Origin: a virus
Length of the DNA: 21,265 nucleotides
Direction: 5' to 3' (one strand)
IMG/VR virus record: IMGVR_UViG_3300025705_000029
Location: 1-21,265 of that record
Shown: positions 7,260 to 20,224 of the stretch, in pieces
How positions within the stretch are numbered: position 1 is the stretch's first letter
Layout of the letters: each line of letters begins with the position of its first letter
Notes under the pieces: model-generated
The model's input: only the letters and a program-made list of their open reading frames with translations
Told to the model about the DNA's origin: nothing
Database searches by the model: none
Position numbers and translations under genes: made by a program

Positions 7260-7288
7260 AAAAAACCAATAAAAATTACAAGTACTTG

Positions 7289-7319
7289 AAAAGGCAGGAT
7301 TTATTCTTGCCTTTTTTTT
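7289..7319 (+). terminator. Intrinsic terminator of the recombination operon
   Basis: An 11-bp stem AAAAGGCAGGA/TCTTGCCTTTT (one G-U pair) with a 5-base loop (7300-7304) runs into eight T residues (7312-7319). It ends the gp32-uvsX-uvsY transcript and insulates the early promoter that begins 11 bases later. Confidence 0.93.
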
Positions 7320-7329
7320 CTGTTTTTTG

Positions 7330-7358
7330 TTGACAACCAAGACGTCTTACTGTATATT
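7330..7358 (+). promoter_or_regulatory. Consensus early promoter with palindromic spacer, copy 1
   Basis: TTGACA (7330-7335), 17-base spacer, TATATT (7353-7358). The spacer contains the perfect 10-bp palindrome AAGACGTCTT (7339-7348). The same -35, spacer and most of the -10 region recur at 7995-8023, and the downstream TGGTATA and AGGAGTTAG are also shared. The exact -35 suggests strong host-sigma70 early transcription; the palindrome would suit a dimeric repressor or activator. Confidence 0.88.
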
Positions 7359-7390
7359 AATGGTATAAGTTAAAAAACAGGAGTTAGCAA

Positions 7391-7762
7391 ATGGCATATG
7401 TTTCACAAAAAGACAAAGCAGAATTAGCACCAGGCATCAAAGCAGTGCTTAAAAAGTACAAAATGAAAGCCAGTATCGCTGTTCGTAACCATTCAACACT
7501 TTGCGTTAATATCAAAGAAGGCGCAATTGACTTTAGCGATAGTTTTACACATGGTGATGGTTATATTCAAGTTAATGAATATCATATCGACCGTCACTAT
7601 GCAGGTAAAAAGCGTGAGTTTTTTAACGAACTACTAGCGGCAATGAAAGGCCCAAAGTACTTTAACGATGATGATGCAATGACTGATTACTTTAGTCGTT
7701 CACACTATACTGACATCAATGTTGGTAAATGGAATAAACCTTATAACTATACAGGAGTATAA
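7391..7762 (+). CDS. Conserved phage hypothetical protein, 123 aa
   Basis: A 123-residue protein of a type I recall from many phages and some plasmids, function unassigned. Recognisable pieces are the N-terminal helix pair (LAPGIKAVLKKYKMKASIAV), a beta stretch RNHSTLCVNIKEG, the block NEYHIDRHYAGKKREFFNEL, and the C-terminal YFSRSHYTDINVGKWNKPY. No catalytic motif is evident. It is the first gene behind a strong palindrome-bearing promoter, with a good ribosome site (AGGAG, spacing about eight), so it is probably expressed early and abundantly. An early host-interaction role is possible but not shown. Confidence 0.85.
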   Translation: MAYVSQKDKAELAPGIKAVLKKYKMKASIAVRNHSTLCVNIKEGAIDFSDSFTHGDGYIQVNEYHIDRHYAGKKREFFNELLAAMKGPKYFNDDDAMTDYFSRSHYTDINVGKWNKPYNYTGV

Positions 7763-7763
7763 A

Positions 7764-7973
7764 ATGACAAAAATTAAATTTGATATCAACCAATTGGATG
7801 ACATTATGATTGGTGATGTAGATATGAAAGACTATCCAGACTTTTGTGATGCGTATGTTGAGTCAGCATCGTTCAAAGGTATTGAATTAACTGATCAACA
7901 ACTGGAAGAACTTAATATGTCAGATGAAACCCGTGAATGGGTTAATGCAAATGCATACGAAAGTTTATTTTAA
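7764..7973 (+). CDS. Small acidic hypothetical protein, 69 aa
   Basis: The ATG at 7764 is chosen because it follows AGGAG (7753-7757) and the previous stop by one base; a longer frame from 7719 would overlap the previous gene. The 69-residue product is acidic (KFDINQLDDIMIGDVDMKDY at the start) with a helical C-terminal half. It resembles small phage proteins with a repeated Asp-rich N-terminus, but no family or function is recognised. It is co-transcribed with the gene before it. Confidence 0.7.
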   Translation: MTKIKFDINQLDDIMIGDVDMKDYPDFCDAYVESASFKGIELTDQQLEELNMSDETREWVNANAYESLF

Positions 7974-7994
7974 TAAAATAAATTAAAATAAGGC

Positions 7995-8023
7995 TTGACA
8001 ACCAAGACGTCTTACTGTATACT
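7995..8023 (+). promoter_or_regulatory. Consensus early promoter with palindromic spacer, copy 2
   Basis: TTGACA (7995-8000), 17-base spacer, TATACT (8018-8023). The 17-base spacer is identical to that of the promoter at 7330, including the palindrome AAGACGTCTT (8004-8013). The two copies differ by one base in the -10 hexamer and by one in the bases before the shared TGGTATA word. It drives the 91-aa and 61-aa genes. Confidence 0.88.
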
Positions 8024-8054
8024 AGTGGTATATTAAATAAGAAAGGAGTTAGAA

Positions 8055-8330
8055 ATGAGTGTAGAACTTAGAACTGTTATTTCAGATTTAAATTATATTC
8101 GTGGCACGGCTACTCCACGCCAACGACTAATTGATATGACGGAGATGACACCGCAGCAAGCCAATGATGTCTTTGCGTTTATCAATTTGAGCTTAACATC
8201 AAAGGTAATGAAAAAAGAAGGTGAGCGAACACGTATTGAAGTAAAACGTGAAACCGTTAAACTATTCAATGCCATTACCCAATTACAATGCATGGGCTTC
8301 AAGGCTCCTGCCAATCTTTCAAACATATAG
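8055..8330 (+). CDS. Hypothetical protein, 91 aa
   Basis: A 91-residue, slightly basic and helix-rich protein. No recognised domain; the middle (MTPQQANDVFAFINLSLTSKVMKKEGERTRIEVKRETVKLF) could be a small helical bundle. It has an excellent ribosome site (AAGGAGTT) and its own palindrome-bearing promoter, so it is a likely early gene. Such small early genes in T4-like phages often act on the host, but nothing in the sequence shows this here. Confidence 0.75.
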   Translation: MSVELRTVISDLNYIRGTATPRQRLIDMTEMTPQQANDVFAFINLSLTSKVMKKEGERTRIEVKRETVKLFNAITQLQCMGFKAPANLSNI

Positions 8331-8339
8331 GAGACACGT

Positions 8340-8525
8340 ATGCCAGATGAAAGCAACTTTAGACTATTTGTGAATAACATGTATCAGGCTGCAATGAATG
8401 AACGATCAGCCTATAAACAAGAACCATGCACAATTCAGGAGTACTTTGATAACCATAAGTTTTGGTTAAAAGCTCAGTATCAAAGTGGCAAAGAAAACAA
8501 AAATGTTGTTGACATTGTAGATTAA
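8340..8525 (+). CDS. Hypothetical protein, 61 aa
   Basis: A 61-residue protein, MPDESNFRLFVNNMY at the start, with aromatic residues spread through it (Y, F, W) and no recognised motif. It starts nine bases after the previous stop, with AGGAG eight bases before the ATG, so it belongs to the same transcript. Its 3' end overlaps the promoter of the next gene: TTGACA (8509) lies in its last codons. Confidence 0.65.
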   Translation: MPDESNFRLFVNNMYQAAMNERSAYKQEPCTIQEYFDNHKFWLKAQYQSGKENKNVVDIVD

Positions 8526-8537
8526 ATTTCGTATACT
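8509..8537 (+). promoter_or_regulatory. Consensus-like early promoter for the 230-aa gene
   Basis: TTGACA (8509-8514), 17-base spacer, TATACT (8532-8537). The -35 is inside the end of the previous gene, whose TAA stop lies in the spacer. There is no AAGACGTCTT palindrome, unlike the two promoters just upstream. Confidence 0.82.
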
Positions 8538-8567: not shown

Positions 8568-9260
8568 ATGAAAAAGAAATATGACATCTTTAAAGTAATG
8601 ACACTTGCTATTGCAGTTGATGAACTTCAAGGCTTCATCAAAAGTGGATATGGTTATCATGATTATAAAAATAATACCAATGTATATGATAATAAGTCTG
8701 CCATCAAGATGATCCTCCAGGAGAATCCAGACGCACCTGTCATTGAGATAACCCAAAAACATCGTGACCAAGCTTCTGAGCTCAAAGAATACTTTGACAG
8801 TGTTATTGTGATGAAGAAGCTCACAGGCAGTGTTAATGGGTTTGAAGACACTGTAGGCCAATTACTTAACTATACAGAAGTAGACAACTATGGCATTAGT
8901 GTAATTGCAAGTCTGCCCAACAGTTTACGCATCCAGAAACAACGTGACGAAATGGAAGAATTTTACGATGAAAAACGTCACACCAGTGAGTATGTTGGCA
9001 GTGTTGGCAAACGATTTAAGTTTAACCTACTAATTCAGGATATTAAATTTATTGCCAAATATAACATTCATTTGGTAACTGGTGTAGAAGGTGACGTAAA
9101 CTTAGTTAAGTTCTTTTGGAGCAAAGACCCAGACATCAGTAGTATCCTTGTTGGTAAAACTATGGACGTTACTGGATTTGTTAAAGAGCAAAGTATTAGT
9201 AAATTCAGTAAATGCAAAGAAACTGTAATTAATCGTGTAAAAATTCAAGAAAGTGCTTGA
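8568..9260 (+). CDS. Hypothetical protein, 230 aa, possible C-terminal OB-like module
   Basis: A 230-residue protein without a firmly recognised family. The N-terminal half is helical and charged. The C-terminal 40 residues (SSILVGKTMDVTGFVKEQ, then FSKCKETVINRVKI) resemble a small beta-barrel segment of the form V-G-K-x-(beta)-G-x-V-K ... E-T-(beta)-N-R-V-K. I associate that form with OB-like nucleic-acid-binding or exonuclease-linked phage proteins, but this is a weak impression. It has its own promoter, and its stop codon TGA is inside the -35 box of the next promoter. Position before the AAA+ ATPase may indicate a joint role. Confidence 0.75.
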   Translation: MKKKYDIFKVMTLAIAVDELQGFIKSGYGYHDYKNNTNVYDNKSAIKMILQENPDAPVIEITQKHRDQASELKEYFDSVIVMKKLTGSVNGFEDTVGQLLNYTEVDNYGISVIASLPNSLRIQKQRDEMEEFYDEKRHTSEYVGSVGKRFKFNLLIQDIKFIAKYNIHLVTGVEGDVNLVKFFWSKDPDISSILVGKTMDVTGFVKEQSISKFSKCKETVINRVKIQESA

Positions 9261-9285
9261 CAATAACTACACTAGATGTTATCAT
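9257..9285 (+). promoter_or_regulatory. Early promoter for the AAA+ ATPase gene
   Basis: TTGACA (9257-9262), 17-base spacer, TATCAT (9280-9285; five of six consensus). The -35 hexamer overlaps the TGA stop of the preceding gene. A leader of about 30 bases follows, with AAGGAGTG as the ribosome site. Confidence 0.72.
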
Positions 9286-9320: not shown

Positions 9321-10331
9321 ATGCAAAAAGTACGTGTTTTAACCGGAGTATATGCCGGAGCAACAATCAAAGATACTGTTTTTAAACTTGAAAAGCCTTT
9401 TAAGATAGGCCGTAACGGTGGATTTATCACAGTGTGTGGTAAAGATATTCCAGGAATGCCAGATCGTAGGATCCGCATTAAAGTGGAAAGTGCAAACAGT
9501 TTTGAGGATGTTGACGATAATGCGTCAGTAGGCACACCGACGTCAGACGTCAAGCCAGAAGAAACTGACGAACAAGTAATTGAACGACTACGTGAGCGGT
9601 TCCAAATTTTGGAAGACATGACAGAGGCCGCTATTGATGGAGTTGTTCGTGGAATGGTTGTAACAGGCCCTCCAGGTGTAGGTAAAAGTTTTGGAGTAGA
9701 GCAAGTGCTGGATTCAGCAAAGGTTGCTACAAAACTAACTAATGCACCAGAACGTTACGGCGTTGTTAAAGGCGCCAGCTCTGCTATTGGTTTGTACAAA
9801 ACATTGTATGAATATGCAGACAAAGGTTCAGTACTTGTGCTGGATGACTGTGATACTGTATTGTATGACGAAACTAGTTTGAATTTGCTTAAAGCCGCAT
9901 TAGACAGTGGCAAGAAGCGTAAACTAAGTTGGTTGGCAGACAGTGCATTGTTACGCCGAGAAGGCATTCCAGACACATTTGAATTTAAAGGAAGCGTTGT
10001 GTTTATTACAAACCTCAAGTTTGAAAAAGCTCGCGGTAAGATTGCAGACCACCTGGGTGCGATCATGTCACGTTGCCACTACTTGGACTTGACAATGGAT
10101 ACAATGCGTGAAAAGTTTTTACGGTGTAAACAAATTGTTGGAGATGGCATGCTTGATGAGTATGGCTTCAACAAAGCCGAGCAAGCAGAGTTGCTGGAAT
10201 ATGTTTACATTAACCGTAACCGACTGCGTGAATTGAGCTTACGTATGGTTACCAAAATTGCAGATTTACGAAAGATGAATCCTGTAAAGTGGAAAACATA
10301 CTCAGAGTCAACATGCATGCGGAGAGTTTAA
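9321..10331 (+). CDS. AAA+ family ATPase
   Basis: A 336-residue protein with a clear P-loop ATPase core. Walker A is GPPGVGKS (116-123) and Walker B VLVLDD (171-176); a sensor-1 strand SVVFITN ends at Asn231 and a candidate arginine finger lies at Arg251 (GAIMSRC). The N-terminal ~60 residues (VRVLTGVYAGATIKDTVF, then KIGRNGGFITVCGKDIPG) look like a small beta-barrel of KOW/SH3 type, which may bind a partner or nucleic acid. The linker at 60-85 is acidic. The ATPase could be a remodelling factor or helicase-loader-like; it is not the clamp loader gp44 by its motifs. It has a consensus-like promoter and a strong ribosome site. The target is unknown. Confidence 0.88.
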   Translation: MQKVRVLTGVYAGATIKDTVFKLEKPFKIGRNGGFITVCGKDIPGMPDRRIRIKVESANSFEDVDDNASVGTPTSDVKPEETDEQVIERLRERFQILEDMTEAAIDGVVRGMVVTGPPGVGKSFGVEQVLDSAKVATKLTNAPERYGVVKGASSAIGLYKTLYEYADKGSVLVLDDCDTVLYDETSLNLLKAALDSGKKRKLSWLADSALLRREGIPDTFEFKGSVVFITNLKFEKARGKIADHLGAIMSRCHYLDLTMDTMREKFLRCKQIVGDGMLDEYGFNKAEQAELLEYVYINRNRLRELSLRMVTKIADLRKMNPVKWKTYSESTCMRRV

Positions 10332-10381
10332 TTGGTTAGCTTCTCCTCTGTCTATATCACTCTCACTCCAGCTAGCTAATT
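10330..10381 (+). other. Long stem-loop with pyrimidine-rich loop
   Basis: AATTGGTTAGCT (10330-10341) pairs with AGCTAGCTAATT (10370-10381) over 12 bp with two G-U pairs, starting in the stop codon of the ATPase gene. The 28-base loop is almost all C and T with two CTCC words. It lies six bases upstream of a second, GC-rich hairpin, so the two may act together in message ending or processing. Confidence 0.5.
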
Positions 10382-10386
10382 AAAAC

Positions 10387-10408
10387 GGGGGGATCGAAAG
10401 GTCCCCCC
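10387..10408 (+). terminator. G6/C6 hairpin before uvsW
   Basis: GGGGGGATC (10387-10395) pairs with GGTCCCCCC (10400-10408) with one U-G pair and a GAAA tetraloop closed by C-G. It is very stable but is followed by ACCCTTATCTTCTTG without a T run. It may act as a weak terminator, pause or 3'-end protector. The left arm GGGGGATC is shared with the hairpin after gp32. Confidence 0.6.
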
Positions 10409-10420
10409 ACCCTTATCTTC

Positions 10421-10449
10421 TTGACAACAATAGGTAAAATCTGTATAGT
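10421..10449 (+). promoter_or_regulatory. Consensus promoter giving a predicted leaderless uvsW transcript
   Basis: TTGACA (10421-10426), 17-base spacer, TATAGT (10444-10449). The uvsW ATG at 10456 is seven bases after the last base of the -10 hexamer, at the expected transcription start. There is no space for a Shine-Dalgarno sequence in such a transcript. Confidence 0.8.
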
Positions 10450-10455
10450 ATTATT

Positions 10456-11910
10456 ATGGCAAAGATTATTTTAAAAGATGAAGTAAATTGTAAGATCGAA
10501 GGTCTCGATCTGGATACTCGCAAGAAACTGGTCAACAAGTTCAGTTTTATGTTGCCGTATGCATATCATGTGCCGGCATACAAACTAGGACGTTGGGATG
10601 GTAAGGTTAATTACTTTAACATTGGTGGGTCTACATATACAAATCTATTGGAAGACATATTGCCAGTATTAATTGCTGACGGTTATGAAGTAGATATTGA
10701 TGACCGCAGAACAGAAATTAAATTAGATTTCCCACAAATTACAGAAAAACATTTTAGTGATAAACGGTGGCCTGAAAAACATCCAGTTGCAGGCGAGCCA
10801 GTTGTATTGCGTGACTATCAGGTTGAGATTATAAATCAGTTTCTCAGTAACCCACAGTGCTTACAAGAGATTGCAACTGGTGCAGGCAAGACATTAATTA
10901 CAGCCGCACTCAGCAACCTAATAGAACCATATGGTCGTAGTATTGTAATTGTACCCAACAAAGACTTGGTGTTACAAACAGAAGTAGACTACATCAACTT
11001 GGGATTGGATGTGGGTGTATACTTTGGGGATAGAAAAGAATTTGGCAAAACACATACCATTTGTACATGGCAGAGTTTAAACAGCATGGAAAAGCGTTTT
11101 CGTAACGGAGACAGCGATGTAAGTGTTGTGGACTTTGCGGCTGATGTACAGTGTGTTATTGTAGATGAGGTACATCAAGCCAAAGCTGATGTGCTTAAAA
11201 AGTTACTCACAGGAGTATTTGCTAATGTTCCAATACGTTGGGGTCTTACTGGTACAATACCAAAAGAAGACTCAGACAAGATTGGACTTACAATTAGTCT
11301 GGGGCAAGTGGTAAATAAACTTGCGGCCAGTGAGTTACAAGACATGGGCGTTCTAGCACAGTGTGATGTGAACGTTCTTCAACTTCAGGATACTGCTGAA
11401 TACAGCAACTATCAGGAAGAATTAACATACTTAACCACAGATAAACAACGCCTGGATTATATGGCTGGATTAGTCAAGAGTTTAAGTCTTGAAGGTAATA
11501 CACTAGTATTGGTTGACAGGATTAAGGCTGGCGAAGGATTGATTGAGCGACTTCCAGAAGAGTCGGTGTTTATTAGTGGCAGTATGAAAAGTAAGGATCG
11601 CAAAGATGAATATGATGAGGTTAGTGAGGCAAACAACAAAATTATTATTGCTACTTATGGTGTGGCCGCTGTTGGCATTAACATTCCTCGCATCTTTAAT
11701 CTTGTTCTTGTTGAGCCTGGTAAGTCTTTTGTGCGTGTTATCCAGTCTATTGGCCGTGGCATACGTAGAGCAAAAGATAAAGACAGTGTTCAAATTTGGG
11801 ATATAACCAGTACAGCTAAGTTTAGCAAGCGCCATTTACGTGAGCGCAAAAAGTTTTATAAAGATGCTAACTATCCCTTTACTATAGATAAGGTAAAATA
11901 TAGAAAATGA
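10456..11910 (+). CDS. uvsW: UvsW-like RNA-DNA / recombination helicase
   Basis: Superfamily 2 helicase, 484 aa. In T4, UvsW unwinds R-loops and branched recombination intermediates and helps switch replication from origin-dependent to recombination-dependent mode. The N-terminal ~110 residues form the UvsW substrate-recognition domain (YAYHVPAYKLGRWDGKVNYF is typical). Helicase motifs: a Q-motif-like LRDYQ (118-122), Walker A TGAGKT (141-146), DEVH box (237-240), motif III LTGTIPK (264-270), motif V around YGVAAVGINIP, and motif VI QSIGRGIRR. The predicted mRNA is leaderless. The stop overlaps the next ATG by four bases (ATGA), beginning a tight operon that runs to the oxygenase gene at 15005. 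Confidence 0.96.
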   Translation: MAKIILKDEVNCKIEGLDLDTRKKLVNKFSFMLPYAYHVPAYKLGRWDGKVNYFNIGGSTYTNLLEDILPVLIADGYEVDIDDRRTEIKLDFPQITEKHFSDKRWPEKHPVAGEPVVLRDYQVEIINQFLSNPQCLQEIATGAGKTLITAALSNLIEPYGRSIVIVPNKDLVLQTEVDYINLGLDVGVYFGDRKEFGKTHTICTWQSLNSMEKRFRNGDSDVSVVDFAADVQCVIVDEVHQAKADVLKKLLTGVFANVPIRWGLTGTIPKEDSDKIGLTISLGQVVNKLAASELQDMGVLAQCDVNVLQLQDTAEYSNYQEELTYLTTDKQRLDYMAGLVKSLSLEGNTLVLVDRIKAGEGLIERLPEESVFISGSMKSKDRKDEYDEVSEANNKIIIATYGVAAVGINIPRIFNLVLVEPGKSFVRVIQSIGRGIRRAKDKDSVQIWDITSTAKFSKRHLRERKKFYKDANYPFTIDKVKYRK

Positions 11911-12407
11911 AAATATTAACAGTAGAAAATAAGCCGTACGAATTAGACTTTGTACCAGAAGAAATAGAAGATGTGCGTTACGGCGTATTAGATTATAGTA
12001 ATAAAAACGATGCAGATTATTTCTTTGTGCCGCTTGTTTTTCTTGAAATATTTAATGCACCTGCGGCAGTATTGCGCATAGGCAATCACATGGTTAAGAT
12101 GCCATTGGATTGGAGTTTAATTATTTGTGAGCCAGATGTTGGTGAACCTGAAGTAGTACCCATTACAAGTTTAAATGATCGAGGCTTCCATGCATTTACA
12201 TTTAATCCAATCTCAGGGTTTTTACCCAAGTTTCAGAATGTGGAAATTACAAATGTATTTCAGGAAGTTAAATGGCATTTTCCAAAATTAAAGTTTGGAC
12301 ACTTTTTAGCGGTGCCACTGGGAGATGAAGAAGGCAGCAACTGTGCCTTTTTTGTCAAAGAAACCAGTAAGGTTCCTGATATACTAGACACATATTATTT
12401 GTGGTAA
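11907..12407 (+). CDS. Conserved marine-phage hypothetical protein, 166 aa
   Basis: A 166-residue protein of a family I recall as widespread but uncharacterised in T4-like and other marine phages. Characteristic blocks are VFLEIFNAPAAVLRIG, MPLDWSLIICE, ITSLNDRGFHAFTFNP and VKWHFPKLKFGHFLAVPL. The fold looks beta-rich and compact, with no membrane segment. It overlaps the uvsW stop by four bases, so it is translationally coupled to the helicase. Function unknown; placement in a replication operon is the only clue. Confidence 0.85.
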   Translation: MKILTVENKPYELDFVPEEIEDVRYGVLDYSNKNDADYFFVPLVFLEIFNAPAAVLRIGNHMVKMPLDWSLIICEPDVGEPEVVPITSLNDRGFHAFTFNPISGFLPKFQNVEITNVFQEVKWHFPKLKFGHFLAVPLGDEEGSNCAFFVKETSKVPDILDTYYLW

Positions 12408-12411
12408 TAGT

Positions 12412-12621
12412 ATGAGTGGTCAAAGACGTTGGTTAAAAACATGGGCTAGAACTGTTGGTATGCCGATTGGTGTTACTGATGAAGACAAGCCTGAGTTTTT
12501 GCCTATTTCACAAACAGATGTAAAACGTGCATTAATTTTTAGGACGTTCTGGATTATCTTGCATGTTGTAACATGTTGTGCTATCATAGCAGGTAATGGC
12601 AGAACACTGGGATTTTGGTAA
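12412..12621 (+). CDS. Small single-pass membrane protein, 69 aa
   Basis: A 69-residue protein with a basic N-terminus (RRWLKTWAR) and one predicted transmembrane helix at about residues 40-61 (ALIFRTFWIILHVVTCCAII), ending with a short tail GNGRTLGFW. By the positive-inside rule the N-terminus would be cytoplasmic. No family recognised. It starts five bases after the previous stop, and its TAA overlaps the ATG of gp62 (TAATG). It could tether replication proteins to the membrane, or be a host-envelope effector; both are speculation. Confidence 0.7.
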   Translation: MSGQRRWLKTWARTVGMPIGVTDEDKPEFLPISQTDVKRALIFRTFWIILHVVTCCAIIAGNGRTLGFW

Positions 12622-13082
12622 TGAGTAATAAACTAACAATTAAAGAAGAGATGCGAGCGATTGATCAGCGTGACGTCGGTTGGTGGGATACACTAACTGA
12701 AGAAGAACAAAAGAAGATTAGTCCTTGGTTATTGATGCGATATACCAGTGCATGTGATACAAACCATGATGCAATCCGTGATCATTATTTAACAATGACT
12801 AATGAACTAGTTAATGTACAGTTTAATACATTGCGGCATCATGTACAACTACAGCATCGCTTAATGCAAGTTGTTGGTATTGGTAAAAGTCAATATCATC
12901 CGTGGATAGCACCCGGCAAGAGACAAAAGAAAAACAAAGTGGCTGAATGGTTACTAACACTGTATCCAGGCATCAATGATGACGAGTTGGATATATTATT
13001 GGAAAGTCCTAAAGCTGAACTTAAAAGTCTGGCAGAGTCAGCAGGCATGACAGACAAGGATATAAAGGCATTATTTAAATAA
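12621..13082 (+). CDS. 62: Probable clamp-loader small subunit, gp62-like
   Basis: From ATG 12621 the product is 153 aa; the earlier TTG at 12615 is rejected because the ATG overlaps the previous stop. The protein is helical. I assign gp62 by pattern: PWLLMRYTSACD near the start, then NELVNVQFNTLRHHVQLQHRLMQ, then a basic HPWIAPGKRQKKNKVAEWL, then a helix pair around a YPGINDDELDILL turn. This matches the order in small gp62 proteins of marine T4-like phages (P-F-x-x-N-R, N-x-x-x-x-L-Q-x-D-Y-L, basic K-W segment). gp62 joins gp44 to load the sliding clamp gp45. gp44 is not adjacent, unlike in T4. A divergent sequence, so moderate confidence. Confidence 0.6.
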   Translation: MSNKLTIKEEMRAIDQRDVGWWDTLTEEEQKKISPWLLMRYTSACDTNHDAIRDHYLTMTNELVNVQFNTLRHHVQLQHRLMQVVGIGKSQYHPWIAPGKRQKKNKVAEWLLTLYPGINDDELDILLESPKAELKSLAESAGMTDKDIKALFK

Positions 13083-13741
13083 TGTACAGTTGTGAATATT
13101 GCAAAAGAAGTTTTAAACGTGAGAGTAGTCTTGCTGTACACATGTGCGAACGCAAGCGACGAGCTCTTAATCGTAGCGAAAAGCACGTTGTAGCAGGATA
13201 CAATGCCTACAACTACTGGTATAAATTGGCAATGGGCAGTAAGAAAGACAAGTCATATGATGATTTTGCTGGCAGTCAATACTACAGTGCGTTTGTGAAG
13301 TTTGGCAGATACATACTTGATATCCGTGCAGTTAATCCAGAATCATACATACGCTGGCTAACCACAAACAAAACTAAATTGGATACTTGGTGCAAGGACA
13401 GTGTTTACAATCGTTACTTGGCTGACAGTAGTAAAAGTGAAACCGCTGACAGAGCATTAGAGCGTTTTGTAATACATGCTGAAGCCTGGAGTAAAACAAG
13501 TGGGCATCATTGGAGTGACTATTTTGATAAGGCTACTCCACACAGTATTGTAATACACATTGGCAACGGAAAGATATCGCCCTGGATAATTTATAGCAGT
13601 GACAAAGCACAAAAATGGCTGGATACTATTCCCAATGACATGCTCAAGCAAGTGGCAGATACACTGGATCCTAATTTTTGGGTACGCAAGACAAAACTAT
13701 TTCCACAGGAAGTTAATTTTATAAGAGAGATAATTGGATGA
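13082..13741 (+). CDS. Protein with N-terminal zinc-finger motif, 219 aa
   Basis: The first 26 residues form a zinc-finger-like motif: Cys4-x2-Cys7, an aromatic Phe11, Leu17, His20 and Cys22, followed by a basic patch ERKRR. This is C2H2-like with a final Cys in place of His. I recall such fingers (form F-K-R-E-S-x-L-x-V-H-M-C-E-x-K-R-R) on several T4-like marine phage proteins. The remaining ~190 residues are helical and rich in Trp and Tyr (for example YWYKLAMGSKKDKSYDDFAG, WITSS-like SPWIIYSSDKAQKWLD) with no recognised domain. A DNA- or protein-binding role in replication is likely. Its ATG overlaps the gp62 stop by one base, and its own TGA overlaps the next start (ATGA). Confidence 0.85.
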   Translation: MYSCEYCKRSFKRESSLAVHMCERKRRALNRSEKHVVAGYNAYNYWYKLAMGSKKDKSYDDFAGSQYYSAFVKFGRYILDIRAVNPESYIRWLTTNKTKLDTWCKDSVYNRYLADSSKSETADRALERFVIHAEAWSKTSGHHWSDYFDKATPHSIVIHIGNGKISPWIIYSSDKAQKWLDTIPNDMLKQVADTLDPNFWVRKTKLFPQEVNFIREIIG

Positions 13742-14313
13742 TACCAGCAACAGACATTGACATTGATACAGCAGACAGAAATCGTGTACTGGAATTATTC
13801 CCACATACAGTAGCAGTAATCAAACGTGATAATAAAACTGTTAAACACAACACTGGTGTATACTTTCACAAGATGCCCAGTGAGCCATTTACTGGCATGG
13901 CTACAATTGATCACAAGGAAGCAGAAGATCGCGGCTTTTTTAAACTTGATATACTTAACCTAAGTTTATACAAAAACATCAAGACACCAGAACAACTGGA
14001 TGAACTTATGGAAATAGAACCGCAGTGGGATTTACTCGCACATGATGAGTTTATTGATATGCTGTTCCATGTCAAAGGACACGGCGATATTTTACGTAAA
14101 CTAAAGCCCACAAACATCACACAACTGGCCGCAGTGTTGGCTATTATACGTCCTGCAAAGCGACATTTGGTTGACAGTGATTGGGATACTATTATGAAGC
14201 AAGTGTGGATACCGCCCACAGACGGAACTTATTACTTTAAAAAGAGTCACGCTGTTGCCTATGCACATGTTGTGGTTGTACAAATGAATCAGTTGGTAGA
14301 CACACTAACATGA
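13738..14313 (+). CDS. Miniature C-family DNA polymerase (DnaE/PolC alpha)-like protein
   Basis: A 191-residue protein that reads as a condensed palm/fingers core of bacterial replicative polymerase alpha. TDIDIDTADRNRVLEL (5-20) aligns with the PDFDVDF catalytic motif and the helix after it, giving Asp6 and Asp8. HNTGVYFHKMP (37-47) aligns with the AGGVVIAP strand. IDHKEAEDRGFFKLDILNL (57-75) aligns with the segment ending KFDFLGL, with Asp71 as third catalytic Asp. ILRKLKPTNITQLAAVLAII-RP (118-139) aligns with the LIKRLKP...IALVALFRPGP helix, and YFKKSHAVAYAHVVVVQ (166-182) with GFNKSHSAAYALVSYQ. It lacks the PHP domain, the upstream G-R-G-S motif, most of the fingers and the beta-clamp and OB modules. 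It may be a polymerase-derived factor, a minimal enzyme or a structural adaptor. It overlaps both neighbours by four bases. Confidence 0.72.
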   Translation: MIPATDIDIDTADRNRVLELFPHTVAVIKRDNKTVKHNTGVYFHKMPSEPFTGMATIDHKEAEDRGFFKLDILNLSLYKNIKTPEQLDELMEIEPQWDLLAHDEFIDMLFHVKGHGDILRKLKPTNITQLAAVLAIIRPAKRHLVDSDWDTIMKQVWIPPTDGTYYFKKSHAVAYAHVVVVQMNQLVDTLT

Positions 14314-15005
14314 GTTTCAATATAGAAGAGTTTTGGCATCATGGCTTCTGCAAAATAAGAGAAAATATACCACGCAGTACAATAGATGCACATCGTGGAT
14401 TTTTACAATCCAGTCAGATAAGAATTGATCGTGGGCATGATGTACACGGCAACTATTACAGTAAACCTCCCAAGCGTAAAATACAATGGGCTAATACCTG
14501 GAGTCAGGAACTAAGCGAAACACAAGTAGTAAATGCATGTAATAAATTTTATATGCCACAGATAGCACTACTGTTGGATGATCCAGTGTTGTATCACAGC
14601 GATGTTGTGACAACTTATCCAAACTATCAGACAGTGCGACCGCATATTGACACACCTTATAGACATGAAAGTTTTGCTGATGAAGATCAGTTCTTGGGTG
14701 TACAGTGCTTGTTACCGCTGACTGAAAACTTTGGACCACGCACTGGCGGTACAGCATTTGTGTCTGGCAGTCATAATACTAAATGGAATATCAAAGACTG
14801 TTACAATGGAAAGCACGATGAGTACTTTACACAAAATTGTCAGGCAACACATGTAAACTACGGAGAAATGCTGATATGGCATCCCAGAGTGTTACACAGT
14901 GCAACCCCCAATCACGGCGTGGAAAAACGTCCAGCACTATTAATGCTGTATGTAGAACGCCACATACATGATGAATTAAGAGTAATTGAAAATATTATTA
15001 GTTAA
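14310..15005 (+). CDS. Fe(II)/2-oxoglutarate dioxygenase, PhyH-like
   Basis: A 231-residue protein of the phytanoyl-CoA dioxygenase type. The iron-binding triad is visible as His112-x-Asp114 (VRPHIDTP) and His196 (RVLHSATP). The residue expected to bind 2-oxoglutarate is Arg207 (EKRPALLMLYV). The strand GPRTGGTAFVSGSHN (142-156) is typical of PhyH folds. These enzymes couple oxidation of 2-oxoglutarate to hydroxylation of small molecules or other targets. The substrate is not predictable. Such oxygenases are common accessory genes of marine myoviruses. The start overlaps the polymerase-like gene (ATGA). The 3' end overlaps the convergent gene on the minus strand by eight bases, with no terminator between. 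Confidence 0.9.
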   Translation: MSFNIEEFWHHGFCKIRENIPRSTIDAHRGFLQSSQIRIDRGHDVHGNYYSKPPKRKIQWANTWSQELSETQVVNACNKFYMPQIALLLDDPVLYHSDVVTTYPNYQTVRPHIDTPYRHESFADEDQFLGVQCLLPLTENFGPRTGGTAFVSGSHNTKWNIKDCYNGKHDEYFTQNCQATHVNYGEMLIWHPRVLHSATPNHGVEKRPALLMLYVERHIHDELRVIENIIS

Positions 15006-17632: not shown

Positions 17633-17950
17633 ATGAGAACTAAAGAAGAAATTTTAGCACAGATTACAGAAGTTATGGACGAATATGTAACACCAAATGT
17701 AGCACAGCATGGTGGGCAGGTAAACATACTTGACTTTGACTTAGAAACTGGTGTTTTAAGTACACAACTCAGCGGAAGTTGCAGTGGGTGTGCTAGTAGT
17801 ATGGCAACATTAAAGCAAGGTGTTGAAAGCACACTAATGCATTTTGTTCCAGAAATTACAAGTGTTACTGGCGAAGACGACCCGATGTTTAACAATCCGT
17901 ATTACTCGCCAGACCAATTTGGCAATTATAACTTTGATGATTATCAGTGA
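17633..17950 (+). CDS. NifU-like Fe-S cluster scaffold domain protein
   Basis: A 105-residue protein matching the NifU C-terminal (Nfu) domain. It has the helix before V-A-Q-H-G-G-Q-V-N-I (23-32) and the conserved loop GSCSGCASS with Cys50 and Cys53. It continues with a helix TLKQGVESTLMHFVPEITSV, as in NfuA/Nfu proteins. The CxxC pair of two monomers holds a bridging [4Fe-4S] cluster in cellular homologues and passes it to client proteins. The last ~25 residues are an acidic, Tyr-rich tail specific to this copy. It has a strong ribosome site (GAGGAG). As a phage accessory gene it may help mature host or phage iron-sulphur enzymes. The stop overlaps the next start. Confidence 0.9.
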   Translation: MRTKEEILAQITEVMDEYVTPNVAQHGGQVNILDFDLETGVLSTQLSGSCSGCASSMATLKQGVESTLMHFVPEITSVTGEDDPMFNNPYYSPDQFGNYNFDDYQ

Positions 17951-18231: not shown

Positions 18232-19667
18232 TGGCAGAAGATTATGGAATAGATTTACAAAAGCTGTATCTAGAGTTTTTACAGGCAGACAAAGAATTAT
18301 TTGTACGCTGTAATGCTATTATAGATTCAGAGTATTTTGATCGCAGTTTGCGTAGTGCTGTTCGCTTTATGCAAGAGCATGTGGAAAACTATGGCGACAT
18401 GCCTACACTTGAACAAATGAAAGTCAAGGGTAGTGTGGAGTTACAGGACTTGCGAGACAATACATCAGCACATCAAGACTGGTTCTTGGATGAGTTTGAA
18501 AAGTTTTGTAAGCACAAAGGATTAGAGAAGGCAATTTTAGCAAGTACAGACAAACTGGAAAAAGGTGAGTTTGGTGCTGTTGAAATGATGATTAAAGATG
18601 CAGTTGGTATTGGACTTGCAAAAGAACTGGGATCTAACTATTGGGATGATCCTGCAGGACGTATACAACGCATCAAAGACAACCGTGGACAAAATAGTAC
18701 TGGTTGGAAAACAATGGATAACATACTGTATGGTGGATTTAATCCAGGCGAACTAAACATCTTTGCAGGTGGTAGTGGATCTGGTAAAAGTTTGTTTATG
18801 CAAAACATGGCACTCAACTGGAGTTTGGCTGGCAAGAACGTGGTGTATGTTAGTTTGGAACTTAGTGAAGAGCTGTGTGGCATGCGTATTGATGCTATGG
18901 TAACAGGCATGAGTACAAGAGACGTTATGCGCAATGCAGATGATGCCGCACTTAAAGTTAAAATGAAAGGCAAAAAAGCCGGAGTAATACAAACTATACA
19001 AATGCCAAATGGTGCAACCATTAACGACATTAAAGCATACATTAAAGAAGTACAAATACAAATGGGCATCAAAGTTGATGCATTGTTTGTGGACTATTTG
19101 GATTTGATGATGCCAGTAACAGTTAAGGTTAATCCAAGTGATCAGTTTATTAAAGATAAGTTTGTGTCGGAAGAACTACGTAACTTGGCAATGGAAATGC
19201 AGTGTGTGTTTGTTACTGCATCGCAGTTAAACAGAGCGGCAGTAGAAGAAATAGAATTTGATCACTCGCACATTAGTGGAGGGTTGAGTAAGATACAAAC
19301 TGCTGATAACGTGATAGGTATCTTTACAAGTAGAGCAATGAAAGAACGTGGAAGATATCAAATACAGTTTATGAAAACTAGATCATCTAGTGGTGTAGGA
19401 CAAAAAGTAGATTTAGAATTTGATGTAGATAGTTTGCGTATTAGAGATCTTGCAGAAGATGAACAACAATCATATCAAAGCACAGGCAGTTCAATTGTAA
19501 GCGGTATAAAGAAACAATCAACTGTAACAGAATCAAGTCATAATGCAGGACAAGAAACTGCACTACGTGAGCCAGGAGATGGCGATACTATAGGTAAGAT
19601 AAGCGGTAAAGCACAGAGCAGTAAACTACGTGAAATGCTTCAAAATATAAACGTTGATTCAGATTAA
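18231..19667 (+). CDS. 41: Replicative DNA helicase, gp41-like (DnaB family)
   Basis: Hexameric 5'-3' replicative helicase, 478 aa. The N-terminal ~150 residues form the helical domain that binds primase. The RecA-like core begins at GWKTMDNILYGGFNPGELN and has Walker A GGSGSGKS (180-187), the strand VVYVSLELSEE, Walker B ALFVDYLDLM and the H3-type strand CVFVTASQLNR. A glycine-rich DNA-binding loop region follows at HSHISGGLSKIQTADNVIGI, with an arginine-finger candidate in QFMKTRSSSGVG. The C-terminal ~70 residues are polar and low in structure. It works with gp61 primase, encoded just upstream. The stop overlaps a convergent gene on the minus strand by four bases, with no terminator. Confidence 0.96.
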   Translation: MAEDYGIDLQKLYLEFLQADKELFVRCNAIIDSEYFDRSLRSAVRFMQEHVENYGDMPTLEQMKVKGSVELQDLRDNTSAHQDWFLDEFEKFCKHKGLEKAILASTDKLEKGEFGAVEMMIKDAVGIGLAKELGSNYWDDPAGRIQRIKDNRGQNSTGWKTMDNILYGGFNPGELNIFAGGSGSGKSLFMQNMALNWSLAGKNVVYVSLELSEELCGMRIDAMVTGMSTRDVMRNADDAALKVKMKGKKAGVIQTIQMPNGATINDIKAYIKEVQIQMGIKVDALFVDYLDLMMPVTVKVNPSDQFIKDKFVSEELRNLAMEMQCVFVTASQLNRAAVEEIEFDHSHISGGLSKIQTADNVIGIFTSRAMKERGRYQIQFMKTRSSSGVGQKVDLEFDVDSLRIRDLAEDEQQSYQSTGSSIVSGIKKQSTVTESSHNAGQETALREPGDGDTIGKISGKAQSSKLREMLQNINVDSD

Positions 19668-20224
19668 AATAAGTTTTTTACACTCTCACTGATACTTTCT
19701 GATGTAGCACTTTGCCACAGAGTTGGTATAGGAATTTCTAATAGATTGATTGGACAAGTTGTATACAACCATTTGTGTTGTGGCGTCCATGGAGGTTCTC
19801 CTCCCATTTCACCTTCCAGTTGTCCTGCTTGCCAAGTGCTAACACCAACACACAATCTCCAATTGCTTGGCCCGCGGTTCTCGCCTATTTCACGTAGCAT
19901 TGCTTCACTACTAGTAACACACAAACCCGGAGTTACACTAAACGTATCACCAACAGTGCAGTCTGGTGTATGAATAAAATGCAGGCCTTCTTGTGCTACT
20001 GGTCCACCTTGAAACACATGTTCGTTGGCATATATTCCGCAATCAATACCTTGCGAAACTGTTTTTAGATCTAAACTAGGATGTGGTTTGTTGACTACTA
20101 ATCCCCAAGCACCTTTGGCATGATGTTCACAAACAAGTATAACACTTTCATTAAAGAAAGGACTATTTGTGGTTGGTTGAGATATTAGAACTTTACCCTG
20201 CAAACTGTTAGGTCCGGAATACAC
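19664..20224 (-). CDS. YqgE/AlgH family protein (UPF0301/DUF179)
   Basis: A 186-residue protein that matches the bacterial AlgH/YqgE family. The N-terminal LQGKVLISQPTTNSPFFNESVILVCEHH-type block, followed by GAWGLVVNKP, is the family signature (G-K-L-L-I-A-x-P, P-F-x-x-S-V-I-x-x-x-E-H, G-x-x-G-L-V-I-N-x-P). VFQGGPVAQEGLHFIHT is the second conserved block, and the C-terminal WQAGQLEGEM matches the family's G-Q-L-E-x-E motif. Length is close to bacterial members (about 185 aa). The start is GTG at 20224 with AGGA nine bases upstream. In bacteria the family is linked to transcription or virulence regulation and has no firm biochemical role, so the phage function is open. It is last in a minus-strand operon, convergent with gp41. 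Confidence 0.9.
   Translation of the reverse strand: MYSGPNSLQGKVLISQPTTNSPFFNESVILVCEHHAKGAWGLVVNKPHPSLDLKTVSQGIDCGIYANEHVFQGGPVAQEGLHFIHTPDCTVGDTFSVTPGLCVTSSEAMLREIGENRGPSNWRLCVGVSTWQAGQLEGEMGGEPPWTPQHKWLYTTCPINLLEIPIPTLWQSATSESISESVKNLF

Follow-up and report, generated by a model that had tools for sequence, protein, structure and literature searches.

The 10-bp palindrome AAGACGTCTT, placed between the -35 and -10 elements of early promoters in a T4-like marine phage, is probably an operator. The dimeric protein that would bind it sequence-specifically would be encoded by the phage itself and would control its early genes. As judged from the comparison of sequences, the palindrome is the unit under selection. 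That it serves as operator for some dimeric binder is quite likely, that this putative binder is phage-encoded is somewhat less so but still probable, and repression rather than activation is an even call; we infer binding, phage coding and repression with a confidence that falls in this order.

Two related promoters in the window

The stretch analysed here (the window) is the entire 21-kb virus record. Its ORFs, which we read as terminase, UvsX, UvsY, UvsW, primase and a gp41-type helicase, presumably make it a T4-like marine myovirus; the UvsY assignment is also made by PHROG. ORFs 17633-17950 and 19664-20224 are taken to be a NifU-like iron-sulphur scaffold gene and a YqgE/AlgH-like gene, respectively.

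At 7330-7358 and at 7995-8023 lie two promoters of the sigma70 type (Table 1) with 27 identical bases in common. The shared 27-mer, TTGACAACCAAGACGTCTTACTGTATA, extends from the -35 element through the palindrome into part of the -10 element, and a TGGTATA word begins two bases 3' of the -10 element at both promoters. The preliminary description of this DNA, which had reported a common TTGACA, a common 17-base spacer with the palindrome and a common TGGTATA, was thus accurate, as was its remark that the remaining strong promoters of the window (1381, 4099, 8509, 9257 and 10421) have spacers unrelated to this pair. Both promoters are of the early type by sequence, the term "early" being taken solely from the promoter type, and combine near-consensus -35 and -10 elements with the optimal 17-base spacing. 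With one mismatch allowed, AAGACGTCTT is found in the window only at these two places. A pattern this short matches twice in 11 of 100 shuffles, so that the two matches are not improbable in themselves; the shared 27-mer is improbable. From the -35 element on, the two copies are 82 % identical over 62 nt, with similarity reaching the ribosome-binding site; the 60 nt 5' of the promoters are unrelated (35 % ungapped identity). Since neither these flanks nor the genes are related, duplication of the whole unit was rejected.

Table 1. Promoter elements, proposed operators and neighbouring genes of the window
Feature	Position	Strand	Sequence or description
Terminator-like hairpin	7288-7316	+	Directly 5' of promoter 1; 12-pair stem, T tail; PeSL-like arrangement
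-35 element, promoter 1	7330-7335	+	TTGACA; from sequence
Spacer, promoter 1	7336-7352		17 bases
Proposed operator, promoter 1	7339-7348	.	AAGACGTCTT; motif scan and comparative scans
-10 element, promoter 1	7353-7358	+	TATATT; from sequence
Post -10 element, promoter 1	7361-7367	+	TGGTATA; conserved, member of the common promoter frame
Gene under promoter 1 (gene 7391)	7391-7762	+	123 aa; phrog_10415, of unknown function; many T4-like phages have relatives
Small ORF	7764-7973	+	69 aa; presumably same unit as gene 7391; no family match
-35 element, promoter 2	7995-8000	+	TTGACA; from sequence
Spacer, promoter 2	8001-8017		17 bases
Proposed operator, promoter 2	8004-8013	.	AAGACGTCTT; motif scan and comparative scans
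-10 element, promoter 2	8018-8023	+	TATACT; from sequence
Post -10 element, promoter 2	8026-8032	+	TGGTATA; from sequence
Gene under promoter 2 (gene 8055)	8055-8330	+	91 aa, function unknown; relatives, all of them close, found at 10 loci
Small ORF	8340-8525	+	61 aa; presumably same unit as gene 8055
Strong promoter of gene 8568 (contrast)	8509-8537	+	No operator in window; 26 operator-promoter instances in relatives
Strong promoter of AAA ATPase gene 9321 (contrast)	9257-9285	+	No operator in window; 21 operator-promoter instances in relatives

In promoters with this palindrome (class 1), the -10 element and the element that follows it often form an inverted repeat of their own, TATACT-N3-AGTATA, followed by GTTAA (7353-7367 and 8018-8032 in the window).

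Recurrence of the palindrome and its behaviour as a unit

In IMG/VR, where the marine contigs are redundant and incomplete and several scan counts are lower bounds, the exact 27-mer occurs in at least 21 stretches and the promoter form TTGACA-N3-AAGACGTCTT-N4-TATA in at least 115. The same palindrome read backwards, TTCTGCAGAA, which is also palindromic and has the same composition, was found in none of the IMG/VR stretches when placed at the same position. Large contigs with class-1 sites carry 2-13 of them in promoter spacers, as against 0-1 in shuffled genomes, and together the two comparisons led us to reject chance as the source of the pattern. Among 84,980 genomes of bacteria and archaea (257 Gb), none had a match to the promoter form, so a host or prophage promoter was likewise rejected for this form.

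The loci fetched contain 294 distinct operator promoters 5' of 86 gene families, a tally that, like those of arms and offsets below, is enriched by the use of the motif in fetching. The commonest families behind these promoters are the relatives of the window genes 7391 (33), 8568 (26) and 9321 (21). Since the last two lack the operator in the window and have it in relatives, sites are gained and lost at the promoters of related genes. A point against the operator idea is that strong promoters without a site are numerous in these genomes.

Homologues of gene 7391 were fetched through protein similarity, with no use of the motif, and a TTGACA-type promoter lies immediately 5' of almost every one of them. 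Many of their spacers are variants in which the symmetric arms are kept while the flanks have changed (ACCAAGACATCTTACTG, CCAAGATATCTTGGTGC, GTAAGAGTTCTTGGTGT, AGTAAGACATCTTACTG); some have drifted or been replaced (e.g., TTGCTTCATAAATGGAG). Two further scans required the -35, the -10 and the downstream element and left the spacer free. Among the loci first fetched in this way and devoid of the exact AAGACGTCTT, 26 unique spacers have AAG at position 4, and 22 of these have the mirror CTT after it; of the 88 spacers that lack AAG, 5 have CTT. This count is the conservative one. Both the spacer-free scans and the ortholog set found by protein yield AAGR-NN-YCTT. At the fourth arm position, A..T is found 116 times, G..C 10 times and a mixed pair 10 times (Fisher P = 1e-8, with unique spacers counted as independent although the phages are related). 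The centre of the palindrome varies freely, and overall the outer flanks lack symmetry. Because the arms co-vary (AAGA..TCTT, AAGG..CCTT) around this free centre, the general operator can be written AAGR-NN-YCTT. The AAGG..CCTT variants prevail in contigs G020 and G010, the latter having many promoters in common with contig G012.

The promoters share a common frame consisting of the -35 and -10 elements and, after these, conserved RTATA and RKTTAA. Within it the palindrome is found at spacer offsets 3 (96 unique spacers), 2 (24) and 5 (15), while spacer length stays constant; some copies adjoin the -10 element directly. The palindrome thus slides between registers as a unit, which argues for a separate binding site rather than for polymerase contacts, which do not slide.

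Such repeated promoters could also be explained with no regulator at all. A strong promoter cassette would be copied within and between genomes by homologous recombination, with spacer identity due to the common origin of the cassette and to its optimisation for RNA polymerase. Arbiol (2010) and Comeau (2014) reportedly dealt with cassettes of this type, the PeSLs (promoter early stem-loop), in T4-like phages. PMC4503421 describes them in these phages, and the present promoters resemble them in being early, repeated genome-wide, sometimes preceded by a terminator hairpin and followed by small variable genes. The similarity of the window copies as far as the ribosome-binding site and the conservation of the -35, -10 and downstream elements fit copying. 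So do the terminator-like hairpins, detected within 65 nt 5' of 48 of 259 operator promoters and at 19 of 600 control positions, which suggests that cassette copying probably helps to spread operator promoters. However, most copies have no detectable hairpin (in the window, one was found 5' of promoter 1 only and none 5' of promoter 2), and the spacer palindrome with its co-varying arms would, provisionally and with respect to the open-access literature, set the present promoters apart from PeSLs. Neither copying nor polymerase contacts would lead one to expect covariation of the arms around a free centre, and sliding at constant spacer length or different sites in the same frame are equally unexpected from either. 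Copying without a regulator is therefore unlikely as the whole explanation, while PeSL-like copying, by which a promoter reaches new sites together with its leader, is probably part of the spread.

The preliminary description had proposed an operator for a dimeric regulator coordinating the two small-gene units, with a recent duplication as the alternative. The operator idea gains from the recurrence, the arm covariation, the sliding and the other sites in the same frame, its binder staying putative; the scope given to it was too small, as the promoters are phage-wide and family-wide. Absence of the motif elsewhere and drift of the palindrome in relatives had been named as contrary signs. The motif recurs widely, and it is the centre and flanks that drift, around co-varying arms. 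Pure duplication fails on this covariation and on the replacement of one class of site by another, though promoter-plus-leader copying is a likely part of the spread.

The putative binder

In the mechanism we favour, a dimer would occupy AAGR-NN-YCTT between the -35 and -10 elements of early promoters served by host sigma70 and, as a repressor, would block RNA polymerase by occlusion. Early genes would thus be switched off as infection proceeds, and incoming phages with the same operator class would perhaps be silenced as well. A near-consensus promoter with optimal spacing and a compact palindrome on DNA covered by the polymerase has the anatomy expected of an operator for an occluding repressor. 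The half-sites of a 10-bp palindrome are closer together than is usual for helix-turn-helix dimers; a dimer of the ribbon-helix-helix type would fit them.

The binder might instead be an activator or a factor that appropriates sigma70. MerR-type activators do bind in the promoter spacer. However, these promoters already have near-consensus elements at the best spacing, and a site that shifts register would fit occlusion more readily than an activating contact of fixed geometry. As a rival explanation, this reading is given a low probability. An N4-type hairpin promoter for a virion polymerase was rejected, since the palindrome is perfect, loopless and inside an ordinary sigma70 promoter.

A host regulator, for example a MetJ-like repressor, would account for the failure of family searches to find one in the phages. 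Searches of phage proteins with the RHH_1, MetJ, Arc, HTH_3 and MazE families gave nothing above cut-off (weak MazE matches below it were seen in contigs G013 and G014), Pfam scans of small phage proteins gave no obvious regulator among the top 25 families per scan, and co-occurrence of gene families with the operator, in incomplete contigs and with families split by lineage, gave no candidate. Moreover, the 8-bp consensus of the MetJ met box, AGACGTCT (PMC4239095), is contained in AAGACGTCTT. MetJ operators, however, consist of two or more tandem boxes, whereas each promoter here has one, and a variable centre as well as AAGG..CCTT, dominant in two contigs, is tolerated. In view of the single site, this tolerance and the lack of a recognisable MetJ in 15 phage records, the palindrome is not classed as a MetJ operator. 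Nor do cellular genomes point to a host site: none of those searched matches the promoter form, and the 11 genome matches of the 16-base AGTAAGACGTCTTACT are acidobacterial repeats or belong to coding-like stretches and hairpins from unrelated taxa. Control by a host regulator is unlikely. Three observations favour coding by the phage, namely that the promoter form is missing from these genomes, that the 16-base version has no convincing host sites and that related phages differ in operator class. Titles in the open-access literature reveal no bacterial or phage regulatory site with AAGACGTCTT. In MAGs of Acidobacteriaceae, AGTAAGACGTCTTACT lies inside interspersed repeats of TCTTACTAGTAAGA units that are apparently unrelated to phage promoters.

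Alternative sites at promoters of other phages

Class-1 sites were found in no promoter spacer of Melnitz, Slickus01, POP12 or contigs G017, G018 and G019, several of which have other sites instead. Methylophilales phage Melnitz is a relative of the window phage (gene 7391 is 62 % identical to one of its genes). Its sigma70 promoters were treated as early, 31 early promoters being predicted with no identifiable middle promoters (PMC9004378), and its authors proposed simplified regulation (PMC9004378). A term search of that paper found neither "operator" nor "palindrom". In place of the class-1 palindrome, Melnitz has a recurrent spacer site, TGTT-N5-AACA, in 10 spacers.

At 8 promoters of G019 (e.g., 31317 and 58051, reverse strand), ACGAATCA is located just 5' of the -10 element, or its reverse complement just 3' of it, and 3 Melnitz-type sites are present besides. 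In phage Slickus01, which is cultured on Alishewanella SMS8, AAGCTAGTA-N6-TACTAGCTT, a 24-bp inverted repeat, spans the spacer and the -10 element of 7 or more near-identical promoters. They are found in a cluster of small genes at 9590-14670, one of them 5' of its gene 7391 homologue. From the sites recognised, a single operator class dominates nearly every genome, with G019 as the clear exception and one stray match in G020. The G019 promoters with inverted ACGAATCA after the -10 element also have TGTTCT-N-AGAACA-like spacers, so this phage may combine two control sites.

Temperate phages of the lambda type have repressor operators inside their early promoters. The present sites are similar in that palindromes lie between or over the -35 and -10 elements at several phage promoters and that specificity differs among related phages. 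In contrast, these phages look strictly lytic (they are T4-like, and no bacterial genome searched has the promoter form), and the family and co-occurrence searches found no cognate repressor gene. It is possible, but rather doubtful, that such lytic marine phages possess an immunity-like layer, in which each lineage would have its own dimeric early repressor of an unrecognised family, operators would diversify as in temperate phages and incomers of the same class would be silenced. If operator classes were specificity groups, they would provide a predictor, readable from sequence, of interference between co-infecting lytic phages. The defined operator, its variants and its target genes make the question of early-gene timing in T4-like phages without recognised middle promoters testable, and the cultured Slickus01 also offers a system for testing the operator idea.

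Gene 7391 homologues are present in Pectobacterium phage POP12 (promoter upstream of 80501) and Agrobacterium phage Atu_ph07 as well, and there inverted repeats flank the -10 element (CGTTTCGATGG..CCATCGAAACG and TTTCGAT..ATCGAAA).
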